Assembly (NCBI GenBank): GCA_016845065.1
Contig: JAERTG010000023.1
Location: 1-64,000, forward strand
DNA: 64,000 bases
Reading direction: 5' to 3'
Origin: Fidelibacterota bacterium
GTDB taxonomy: Bacteria > Fidelibacterota > UBA8477 > JABMPR01
In this document: piece after piece, positions 56,911 through 60,232 of the stretch
Layout of the letters: each line of letters starts with the position of its first letter
Position numbering within the stretch: the first letter of the stretch is position 1
Made by a program: the position numbers and the translations under genes
The notes under the pieces: model-generated
What the model saw: the letters and a program-made list of their open reading frames with translations, nothing else
Told to the model about the DNA's origin: nothing
Database searches by the model: none

Positions 56911-56933
56911 AAAAAACAGGCTAGCTATCGCCT
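56911..56933 (-). terminator. Weak terminator of the TonB-C gene
   Basis: On the minus strand AGGC (56933-56930) pairs with GCCT (56921-56918) with partial inner pairing, followed by a T-run of six. The stem overlaps the stop codon and is short, so this is tentative. Confidence 0.35.
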
Positions 56934-57300
56934 ATTTATAGCGATATTCAAATGGAATTGCGTAGGTCAATGCAACTGGAATCCCATTCTGCATTGCTGG
57001 CTTCCATTGCGTATTCAAGACTGCATTAACAGCAGATCGGTCAAAGTTTGATCCACCACTCTGGGTAACCCGTATGTCTGAGACATTGCCTTGGATGTCA
57101 ACATGAAAACTCAGTATGACATCGGCATTATTACGGACGATACGATCAAAAGTTGGGTAAACAATGTTACGTGCCAATGCTTTCATCCCGCCCACAGGCA
57201 TGGGATTACAACATTTCTTTTCAGCCTGTGGTTCAGCCATCAATTGTGTTACACCAACTAATAGTATCAAGGCAGTTATGTAGCGTTTCATTCTGTTCAT
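56932..57300 (-). CDS. Secreted TonB C-terminal domain protein
   Basis: 122 residues. A signal peptide (1-22, ending QLMAEP) precedes CCNPMP and an 80-residue TonB C-terminal domain: YPTFDRIVRNNADVILSFHVDIQGNVSDIRVTQSGG and DRSAVNAVLNTQWKPAMQNGIPV. It lacks the N-terminal anchor and Pro-rich spacer of a true TonB, so it cannot span the periplasm like one. A GAGGGG ribosome-binding site supports the ATG at 57300. Confidence 0.85.
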   Translation of the reverse strand: MNRMKRYITALILLVGVTQLMAEPQAEKKCCNPMPVGGMKALARNIVYPTFDRIVRNNADVILSFHVDIQGNVSDIRVTQSGGSNFDRSAVNAVLNTQWKPAMQNGIPVALTYAIPFEYRYK

Positions 57301-57631: not shown

Positions 57632-57704
57632 GCGAGAGTAGCTCAGTTGGTAGAGCTCCACGTTGCCAACGTGGTTGTCGCCGGTTCGAGTCCGGTCTCT
57701 CGCT
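57632..57704 (+). tRNA. tRNA-Gly (anticodon GCC)
   Basis: 73 bases. The acceptor stem GCGAGAG pairs with CTCTCGC (discriminator T, CCA not encoded). The D-arm is GCTC...GAGC. The anticodon stem CCACG/CGTGG encloses TTGCCAA with anticodon GCC, and the T-arm has the loop TTCGAGT. All four stems close. A strong terminator follows one base later. Confidence 0.97.
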
Positions 57705-57705
57705 C

Positions 57706-57740
57706 AAAAAAAAGAGGCTGAATTTTCAGCCTCTTTTTTT
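57706..57740. terminator. Bidirectional terminator after tRNA-Gly
   Basis: Stem AGAGGCTGA (57713-57721) with TCAGCCTCT (57726-57734) around ATTT, flanked by A and T runs. It serves the tRNA (plus) and the selenoprotein gene (minus). Confidence 0.92.
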
Positions 57741-57759: not shown

Positions 57760-58911
57760 TTAATGCCCCTTGTGATTGTCCTTTTCAGCCTTCTTGGTCT
57801 CATCAGGCATATAATCCTTAACAATCATGGCAATTTCAGGTGTATCCTCAATTTTATCATTTAATGGGATCGGTTCCAAGAAGTAGCTGTTTTTTAACTT
57901 CTTGATTAAATCCACGTTGGTCTTGCGTTCATCCCGAAGACGTGCGATAAGTTTTAACCTATTTTCATCTTCAGCAAAATGCTCTTCCAGAGTCATCCCC
58001 TCTTCCAGGCCTCTGGACATTGCTTTTAGACGATTATCCGCAAACTTGATACGCGTGTATTGAGAACTCACATTTTTCATTTGACTGACAGGATCAACAT
58101 TCCTTATCCTCAACACACCTGCATACTTCCCCTGTTTACCAATTCGGATAATGGTGGTACCGTCCTTCTGTTTTGGATTTCTTTGTAATGATCCTGTCTT
58201 GGATCTAATTACAAAATTAATGCCCTTTACCTCTGCGACAACAGACCGTTCTAATTTGTCATCCCCGTTGGTCATGAGAAAAATCAGATCCACCTTATCT
58301 TTTATTTCATCAATTGCATTTTGAGCAGCCTCAATGGGGTCTGAAAAAGCAAATTCCTTTACTCTGGGATCTCCCTTGGTGATACCAATGAAACCCAGGG
58401 TCTGGTCATGGGTCTCGACAATGGTATATGGTTCAAAAAGAAATTTATTTGTATTGGCATCTTTGGTGTTCGCTGAAATGATGGGGAAATTGGCTAGATC
58501 GTTCATCTCGAGAATGAAGTCTAGGCCTCCGGCCAGATCATTTGTCCCCACATTCATAACCTGACATTCCATGATGTTGTAGGATGCAATGATGGCCCTG
58601 GCTGTTTCTTTCAAATGATCACGTTGCGCTTCAGCAACATAAGGATGCTTGAATAATGCATCTCCTGCGTCCACAAGATAGACTGCCTCTGTTTCAGCAA
58701 GTCCTTTCATAATTGTATGCTTCCTGGCGAGACCGCCAAGTGGATTAGAGCGTCAGCCGCAGGGTCCTACTTCCCCATCATTACTGGCTGCAACCATAAG
58801 CGTGAATTCATTTGCATTATATGAAGGATTGGTAGACTCACTTTTACATCCCACTGCCACGAGGGTAATGAGCATGAGCATCAATCCTGATTGTTTGAGA
58901 AGTAGCTTCAT
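57760..58911 (-). CDS. Predicted selenoprotein: metallophosphatase/5'-nucleotidase-like lipoprotein with in-frame TGA
   Basis: 383 residues if the TGA at 58753-58755 is read as selenocysteine (residue 53). The ATG at 58911 has AGGA seven bases upstream, 13 bases after pepP. Residues 1-22 are a lipoprotein signal (LVAVGC). Then follow ASNDGEVGPCG-U-RSNPLGGLARKH, VDAGDALF and NVGTNDLAGGLDF, the pattern of UshA-like metallophosphatase lipoproteins whose relatives carry Cys-Gly-Cys before a GGL(A/S)RR motif. So Sec replaces the second Cys. An ATG at 58710 exists, but starting there removes the signal and the conserved N-terminal motif. A SECIS hairpin follows the TGA. The alternative is a nonsense mutation. 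Redox-linked phosphoesterase activity is inference. Confidence 0.85.
58723..58755 (-). promoter_or_regulatory. Bacterial SECIS element with its UGA codon
   Basis: After UGA (58755-58753), 12 bases are followed by the stem CUUGGCG (58740-58734), loop GUCU (58733-58730) and stem CGCCAGG (58729-58723): seven pairs including one G-U. The loop begins 19 bases after UGA. The sequence GGUCU at the apex is the same as in the E. coli fdhF SECIS bound by SelB, and the hairpin lies inside the coding frame, as bacterial SECIS elements do. Confidence 0.85.
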
Positions 58912-58924
58912 TGTTTATCCTGTT

Positions 58925-60232
58925 TCAACCTTTATTCATAAGTGCTTCAATTTCAGATATCTCTTTAGGAACAGCTGCTGTGAGGTTTTTGTTCCCGGAC
59001 TCAGTAATAAGAATATCATCTTCAATTCGTATACCAATACCCTTGAACTTCTCAGGTGCCTTGGATTTTGAATTGACATAAATACCAGGTTCTACTGTAA
59101 ATACCATGCCTGGTTTAAGCTCGATGGATTCTCCATCAGCCATGTAATTTCCCATATCATGGACATCCAAACCCAGCCAATGGCCGGTGTTGTGCATGAA
59201 ATAGTCTTCATAACTTTTATTTTCGATAACCTCATCAGGGGTACCATCCAATAAACCGATTTCAATCATTCCCTCCACCAGAAGTCTCAAATCAATATTA
59301 TGAAGTTCCTTAAAGGTGACACCAGGTTTAGAGGCTTCAATTACTGCCTTCTGGGCTTTAAGAACTACTCCATATATGGCCTTTTGGGCTTCAGAGAAAT
59401 TCCCATTCGCAGGGAAGGATCTGGTGATATCTGCAGCATACATGTCATATTCGGCAGCAGCATCAATGAGAATCATATCACCATCAACTATCTGATCACG
59501 ATTTTTTATGTAATGCAAGACTGTAGCGTTGTCGCCAGCTCCAACAATGGAGGTGTAGGCAGGTCCCGCACTTCCTTCGTGAACAAAATGGCTTTCCAAC
59601 ACAGCTTGTAGTTGATACTCAAACATTCCGGGAGAACAGGCCTTCATGGCTTTCGAATGGGCATCGGCAGAGATATCGGCAGCCTTTTGTAGAAGCCCTA
59701 TTTCGTGTTCATCCTTAATCAGTCTCATACCATGGGTGAGCGTACCAACGGATTCAAGTCCTACTGGACCTCCGCCTCTCCTCTGTACATCTTTGCGAAC
59801 CTGACCCACATAATCCAACATCTTGTACTGGTGTTCTTTATCGTGATTCAAGTTGGTGTAAACTTTGGACGAGGACTTCATCGCAGCCAGTGTAGCCGTT
59901 TCGAATTCTGCGATATCAAGAGCTTGATCGGATTTATATTTTTTTACCGTTTCATCAAAACTGAGTCTCCAGCCTGTCCACACCTCTTTTTTAGGATCCT
60001 GTGGAAGTACAAACAATGTGAATGGATTTTCCTTGTTATTTGGATCTATGATGCAAGCTGCGCCAGGTTCCGTATACCCCGTGAGATAAAAGAAGTCCGA
60101 ATCCTGTCTGTATGGGTATTCAGTATCATTGGTACGTATTTGTTCAGGTGCCCCTTTCAGGATCGCAACACCCTTACCCATAAGTTTTATTAAGTTTTGT
60201 CTGCGTTTATTGTAAATGTCACTCTTAAACAT
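58925..60232 (-). CDS. pepP: Xaa-Pro aminopeptidase (M24B)
   Basis: 435 residues. The N-terminal aminopeptidase-P domain (YRQDSDFFYLTGYTEPGAA) precedes the pita-bread catalytic domain. The metal ligands are visible: two Asp in LIDAAAEYDMYAADITRSF, His in HNTGHWLGLDVHD, Glu in VFTVEPGIY and Glu in GIRIEDDILIT. It removes N-terminal residues before proline. It is transcribed together with the selenoprotein gene, which starts 13 bases later. Nothing unusual in the sequence. Confidence 0.95.
   Translation of the reverse strand: MFKSDIYNKRRQNLIKLMGKGVAILKGAPEQIRTNDTEYPYRQDSDFFYLTGYTEPGAACIIDPNNKENPFTLFVLPQDPKKEVWTGWRLSFDETVKKYKSDQALDIAEFETATLAAMKSSSKVYTNLNHDKEHQYKMLDYVGQVRKDVQRRGGGPVGLESVGTLTHGMRLIKDEHEIGLLQKAADISADAHSKAMKACSPGMFEYQLQAVLESHFVHEGSAGPAYTSIVGAGDNATVLHYIKNRDQIVDGDMILIDAAAEYDMYAADITRSFPANGNFSEAQKAIYGVVLKAQKAVIEASKPGVTFKELHNIDLRLLVEGMIEIGLLDGTPDEVIENKSYEDYFMHNTGHWLGLDVHDMGNYMADGESIELKPGMVFTVEPGIYVNSKSKAPEKFKGIGIRIEDDILITESGNKNLTAAVPKEISEIEALMNKG

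Follow-up and report, generated by a model that had tools for sequence, protein, structure and literature searches.

Does an in-frame UGA codon in an UshA-like gene of a Fidelibacterota bacterium encode selenocysteine (Sec), and what might the product do? The gene lies in the first 64,000 nucleotides of contig JAERTG010000023.1 of assembly GCA_016845065.1, a stretch referred to here as the window. Its UGA53 is almost certainly read as Sec, and the product, likely an exported protein whose predicted fold resembles those of UshA, CD73, and SoxB, would carry a Cys51-x-Sec53 pair, presumably a thiol/selenol centre, in the former active-site loop. The combined explanation that we consider best, and to which we give an even chance, is that of a Sec protein with a disarmed fold whose thiol/selenol centre would act between a rhodanese and a MauE/DoxX-type membrane protein.

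The UGA-containing reading frame

57760..58911, minus strand: full selenoprotein frame of 383 codons, TGA53 among them, ended by TAA; relatives align along its length and have TGA in the matching column
58918..58921, minus strand: AGGA ribosome-binding site, 6 bases 5' of the ATG at 58911, by direct reading of the sequence
58846..58911, minus strand: signal peptide with lipobox-like VAVG-C22, read from the sequence; predicted lipoprotein
58753..58761, minus strand: Cys51-Gly52-Sec53 (TGC GGC TGA), with TGA at 58755-58753
57760..58710, minus strand: short open reading frame (ORF) of 316 amino acids as reported by gene callers, from the standard ORF list (database copy P0002)

The signal peptide, MKLLLKQSGLMLMLITLVAVGC, lies N-terminal of Cys51-Gly52-TGA53; in several distant relatives the start looks signal-like but lacks the lipobox Cys. 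TGA53 is the sole TGA in the frame and stands in the context Pro-Cys-Gly-TGA, with 330 codons following it before the TAA. A first-pass annotation of this DNA had described the ribosome-binding site, the ATG at 58911, the signal, Cys-Gly-TGA, and the 330 further codons, and every detail holds on the sequence. It had also expected gene callers to truncate the product to 316 residues; the ORF list indeed has only 57760-58710, and the database likewise.

The annotation gap is systematic. The 49 closest database proteins (P0002 to P0050) are shortened or wrong at the Sec position, even though at least 140 of the 175 genomes examined from the phylum carry the gene. None of these proteins shows Sec: 45 start no earlier than the equivalent of residue 68, while four (P0047 to P0050) give Trp for the UGA (PCGW). 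The PCGW entry P0047 represents 77 member sequences. The five nearest named genomes belong to Candidatus Neomarinimicrobiota (77 to 85% identity).

Sec machinery and the distribution of Sec and Cys

All of selA, selB, selC, and selD, which the first-pass annotation had named as genes to look for, are present in the window's genome (93% complete). The selD match there (G000:C50:180859-181779) holds one internal TGA and, because the TGA lies inside the match, is likely a selenoprotein gene itself. In a set of 60 genomes of relatives, 58 match the selenoprotein at some level (paralogues included), 41 have selC, and 43 have selB over the cut-off.

A wider set comprised 175 genomes at least 80% complete, of which 171 have a match, paralogues included; we kept the 140 whose full match was among those listed (at least 140 have one). 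Because the genome search says only that a TGA lies somewhere in a match, the column of residue 53 was read directly, at a locus in each of the 140 genomes. We excluded the second copies G041:C42, G091:C9, and G092:C21 and the partial match G047:C98, and we recoded G056 as Cys because its locus has Cys at the motif. These second copies (L076 for G041:C42, and the matching rows in the other two) belong to genus g18 and lack a TGA.

Residue 53 is Sec in 120 of the 140 genomes and Cys in 20, which answers whether homologues carry Cys at this position. Every genome without the TGA has Cys at the column (in G025, as Cys-Pro-Thr-Cys), and in 45 aligned rows columns 51 and 53 are invariant, as Cys and Cys/Sec, respectively. 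Among the Sec-type genomes, selC is over the cut-off in 98 and selB is over it in 19 of the remaining 22, giving 117 of 120 with one or the other. Among the 20 Cys-type genomes, selC occurs only in G169 and selB over the cut-off only in G169 and G060, and 18 have neither; we disregarded selC hits below the cut-off, which scored about 44 to 47 bits and came from family f7 and certain other genomes. In families f6 and f7, neither selC nor selB exceeded the cut-off in any genome tested, and the gene, where read, has Cys for Sec; the f7 genomes measure only 0.7 to 1.0 Mb. The proposal that the UGA is a Sec codon is thus borne out by selA to selD, by a conserved hairpin, and by Cys in lineages that yielded neither selB nor selC.

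At one locus outside the 175-genome set (G042:C40, L080, minus strand, 4474-3335; genome 66% complete), the Sec codon reads TGC, while the hairpin sequence, selC, and selB are all present. This is likely a recent Sec-to-Cys change, judging from the codon and what surrounds it.

The hairpin behind the UGA

58723..58740, minus strand: putative selenocysteine insertion sequence (SECIS) hairpin with a 7-bp stem; GUCU loop at 58733-58730, GGUCU at 58734-58730

The stem starts 12 bases after the TGA, and 19 bases separate the TGA from the GUCU loop, exactly as had been described at first pass. The folding check proposed there was run, and lowest-energy folding in Python returned the same 7 pairs, plus outer pairs. 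Across the phylum, GGCGGTCT stands under the hairpin in 118 of the 120 Sec-type genes, the exceptions being L035 (GGATT) and L036 (GGGGT), versus 2 of the 20 Cys-type genes. When two loop registers are counted, 102 of 120 Sec genes form at least 6 of the 7 stem pairs, versus 1 of 20 Cys genes, and 119 of 120 Sec genes form at least 5. Shuffling the 3' arms among Sec genes gave a mean pairing of 679 (standard deviation, 6.4), and 0 of 500 shuffles reached the observed 755, a result that is not a probability because the genes are related. The hairpin is more than chance.

The codons at the hairpin position were near-fixed in the 41 Sec rows of our first sample (GGC in 41, GGT in 39, AGG in 34) and varied in its eight Cys rows; AGG for Arg is not widely kept, occurring in 42 of 120 Sec genes versus 34 of 41 in that sample. 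Among the hairpin loci, L043, L081, and L082 (refetches of L080, L030, and L031) and the distant paralogue L083 were skipped, and the motif pattern used did not match L073, L076, or L079. No SECIS family was matched in Rfam by the window at the gathering threshold or by the hairpin at E values up to 10.

A predicted nucleotidase-like fold with a depleted metal site

The predicted model has the UshA/CD73 5'-nucleotidase fold, and its listed fold matches are nucleotidases and SoxB, none of those listed being thioredoxin-type. In the model, the Cys-x-Sec pair lies in the loop between the strand at residues 35 to 40 and the helix at residues 61 to 72, the site of UshA's Asp-x-His metal motif. A redox pair next to a phosphoesterase domain had been suggested at first pass; the pair stands, but it sits inside the predicted domain rather than next to it.

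UshA has six metal ligands, which we take to be Asp41, His43, Asp84, Asn116, His217, and His252; a check of papers for the corresponding CD73 numbers found none. The window's protein keeps only Asp84, the other five being replaced, and Asp41, Asn116, His217, and His252 are each lost in 39 to 44 of the 45 rows (kept in 1 to 6). Hydrolase activity has probably been lost, to judge from these replacements. A sequence search of the PDB also returned ubiquitin chains, at residues 267 to 362 and apart from the nucleotidase match, which we took as chance.

Membership in a known family

The first-pass annotation knew of no described selenoprotein family of this kind; that claim fails. COG0737 UshA-like proteins with the motif CxU were tabulated in the 2008 Global Ocean Sampling survey, with 76 sequences, apart from families with Cys-based redox motifs (PMC2398784), and again in PMC9312934 and PMC13188914; the accessible parts of these three papers give no function for them. 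With its UshA homology and Cys-x-Sec, the window's protein belongs to this group. The accessible parts of two papers on Marinimicrobia and selenoproteins do not mention the UshA-like gene.

The NCBIfam model NF041198, "UshA-like (seleno)protein" (UshA_like_PCGU), also exists. Against it the window's protein scores 219.2 bits, below the curated cut-off of 275, with the match spanning profile positions 2 to 377 of 519 and the C-terminal part unmatched; NF049981, "UshA-like (seleno)protein family 2," scores 36.6 bits, below its cut-off of 140. Pfam gave no match over the cut-off for the selenoprotein. For the fused protein P0053, all of the best 120 of 342 relatives (a set that counts P0053 too) have four CxxCH motifs, 112 of these 120 have Pro-Cys-Gly-Cys, and none of the 45 rows of the window's branch has a CxxCH. 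The unmatched part of the profile would thus correspond to a tetrahaem cytochrome tail. As judged from these comparisons, the selenoprotein is a cytochrome-less branch of a known family, beyond the reach of the curated model.

The rhodanese-MauE/DoxX neighbourhood

In distant relatives, a tandem of genes for a rhodanese and a MauE/DoxX membrane protein directly adjoins the selenoprotein gene. Where the start is clear, the rhodanese has, by eye, a hydrophobic N-terminal anchor; in one genome (G057, locus L069) rhodanese and MauE are fused. The membrane protein of the tandem is a closer match to MauE than to DoxX. Cys-Gly-Cys is present in all 16 of the MauE-like proteins read, and all 15 rhodaneses read have a second Cys in the active-site loop.

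A search with the fused G057 protein matched 119 of the 175 genomes, and at least 107 of the 140 have a MauE-type hit among the matches listed. Using profiles built from the proteins read here and requiring each of the two genes to lie no more than 2.5 kb from the selenoprotein gene, we found the tandem in 71 of the 140 genomes and 14 of 27 families, on the same strand as the selenoprotein gene in all 71. Its position is upstream in 21 genomes, those of f14, f15, and f28; the 50 genomes of the remaining eleven families have it downstream. At one further locus (L111; G138, f26), a rhodanese gene lies near the selenoprotein gene, with no MauE gene in the fetched stretch. The window's own genome has its tandem at G000:C130 65812-66794 (L092, 5813-6795), unlinked to the selenoprotein gene; its family, f1, has a MauE-type hit in all 18 genomes among the matches listed.

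Paper listings on MauE, rhodanese, DoxX, and selenoproteins showed none that describes this three-gene link.

Proposed role and alternatives

The rhodanese-MauE/DoxX neighbourhood, the fused tetrahaem cytochromes, and the ligand loss together point to a sulfur/thiol redox centre rather than a nucleotidase, and the function question for UshA-like selenoproteins is now testable as a choice between the two. In the reading that we prefer, the centre would pass sulfane sulfur or electrons between the membrane-anchored rhodanese and the MauE/DoxX membrane protein. The chance that this amounts to an extracytoplasmic sulfur/thiol relay with Cys-x-Sec as its reactive centre seems to us a little short of even. 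More doubtful is the full version, a metal-free selenol-sulfur relay ancestral to the phylum: sulfane sulfur from the two-Cys rhodanese would reach Cys-x-Sec, electrons would leave through the Cys-Gly-Cys of MauE/DoxX to quinone, and the tetrahaem cytochrome would replace MauE in the fused relatives.

Several observations weigh against the relay or its parts. No direct chemistry was found for any family member. The tandem does not adjoin the selenoprotein gene in 69 of the 140 genomes, among them all 18 of f1 (some loci extend little past the gene); for the window's family, the rhodanese-MauE link is therefore phylum-wide context only. The matches listed include no MauE-type hit from f7 (all 12 genomes being Cys-type), f3 (3 genomes), or f29 (6 genomes, two of them with a weak unlisted MauE match). 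The window's protein and 32 of 45 rows retain Asp84, which leaves room for a single metal; His occupies the His43 position in 15 of 45 rows, and the cytochrome-fused relatives keep Asp41, Asp84, His217, and His252 in all 14 rows. The g18 second copy L076 lacks the Cys-x-Sec motif and reads LYPKK. On the Sec side, three draft genomes that are 86 to 90% complete (G176, G110, and G106) have the TGA with neither selC nor selB, and selB occurs in the Cys-type genomes G169 and G060.

Plain disulfide exchange is the strongest rival to the relay. MauE of methylamine utilization is thought to work with MauD, and the selenoprotein could likewise be a thiol-disulfide oxidoreductase for exported proteins, paired with MauE, with sulfur transfer incidental. 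A MauE/DoxX partner with a conserved Cys-Gly-Cys would suit this, as would Cys-x-Sec, a plausible disulfide or selenylsulfide centre. However, the rhodanese is also present in all 71 genomes with the MauE neighbour, and the thioredoxin type is absent from the listed fold matches, and we regard this alternative as rather unlikely.

We think it improbable that a metal-dependent phosphoesterase has been retained with Cys51 and Sec53 substituting for lost ligands, since four ligands are gone from most rows and the genes conserved nearby encode sulfur/redox proteins rather than nucleotide enzymes.

There is very little chance that the UGA is a plain stop before a 316-amino-acid gene starting from 58710, or a sequencing error or pseudogene scar: gene callers and 45 of the 49 close database proteins do give the short form, but 120 of 140 genomes share the TGA at this column, with the conserved hairpin, the other 20 have Cys, and the signal peptide and strand 1 lie upstream of it. 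Reading of UGA as Trp under a changed genetic code, as P0047 to P0050 show it, is less credible still, as 3 of 13 window genes terminate in TGA, all 20 genomes without the TGA have Cys there, and the window's genome has selA to selD.

Other features of the locus

58925..60232, minus strand: Xaa-Pro aminopeptidase-like gene (by eye), upstream, 13 bases 5' of the selenoprotein start; order kept in the genus
56932..57300, minus strand: TonB C-terminal domain protein, downstream; neighbours the selenoprotein gene in most genus loci
57705..57733, minus strand: hairpin plus T-run after the stop, intrinsic-terminator-like, by direct reading of the sequence

A tRNA gene (57632-57704, plus strand; anticodon GCC, Gly, by eye) lies directly behind the terminator-like hairpin. 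We considered the pepP-TonB-XRE-Pcm-PspC neighbourhood as a functional clue and set it aside, as it is a genus-level arrangement hardly found in distant relatives; a type-2 isopentenyl diphosphate isomerase-like gene and other neighbours (by eye) are restricted to few lineages.

Comparison with known systems

The SECIS of Escherichia coli fdhF has its GGUCU at the offset seen here, 21 counted from the T of UGA, but folds with a longer lower stem, whereas the element here is a simple 7-bp hairpin. Unlike E. coli UshA and human CD73, the window's protein has no C-terminal nucleotide-binding domain, five of the six metal ligands are replaced, and Cys-x-Sec occupies the active-site loop. It is also far from the SoxB thiosulfohydrolase, with 48.7 bits against the TIGR04486 cut-off of 550; SoxYZ was not searched for.

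SseA is a rhodanese-type sulfurtransferase, and as the partner in DoxX-SseA-SodA it parallels the neighbourhood rhodanese. DoxX-SseA-SodA, a membrane oxidoreductase complex of Mycobacterium tuberculosis (PMC10501769), and DoxDA, a thiosulfate:quinone oxidoreductase (PMC6335251), both contain a DoxX/DoxD-type membrane protein, as does the neighbourhood here; in the accessible parts of these papers, an UshA-like selenoprotein is in neither.

The closest known relatives are the proteins of NF041198, which share the nucleotidase-like domain and the Pro-Cys-Gly-Cys/Sec motif; the window's branch differs in being short, in lacking the tetrahaem cytochrome tail, and in its further loss of metal ligands. 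What appears to be new is this loss of metal ligands with the Cys-x-Sec/Cys pair kept, together with the phylum-wide link to rhodanese and MauE.
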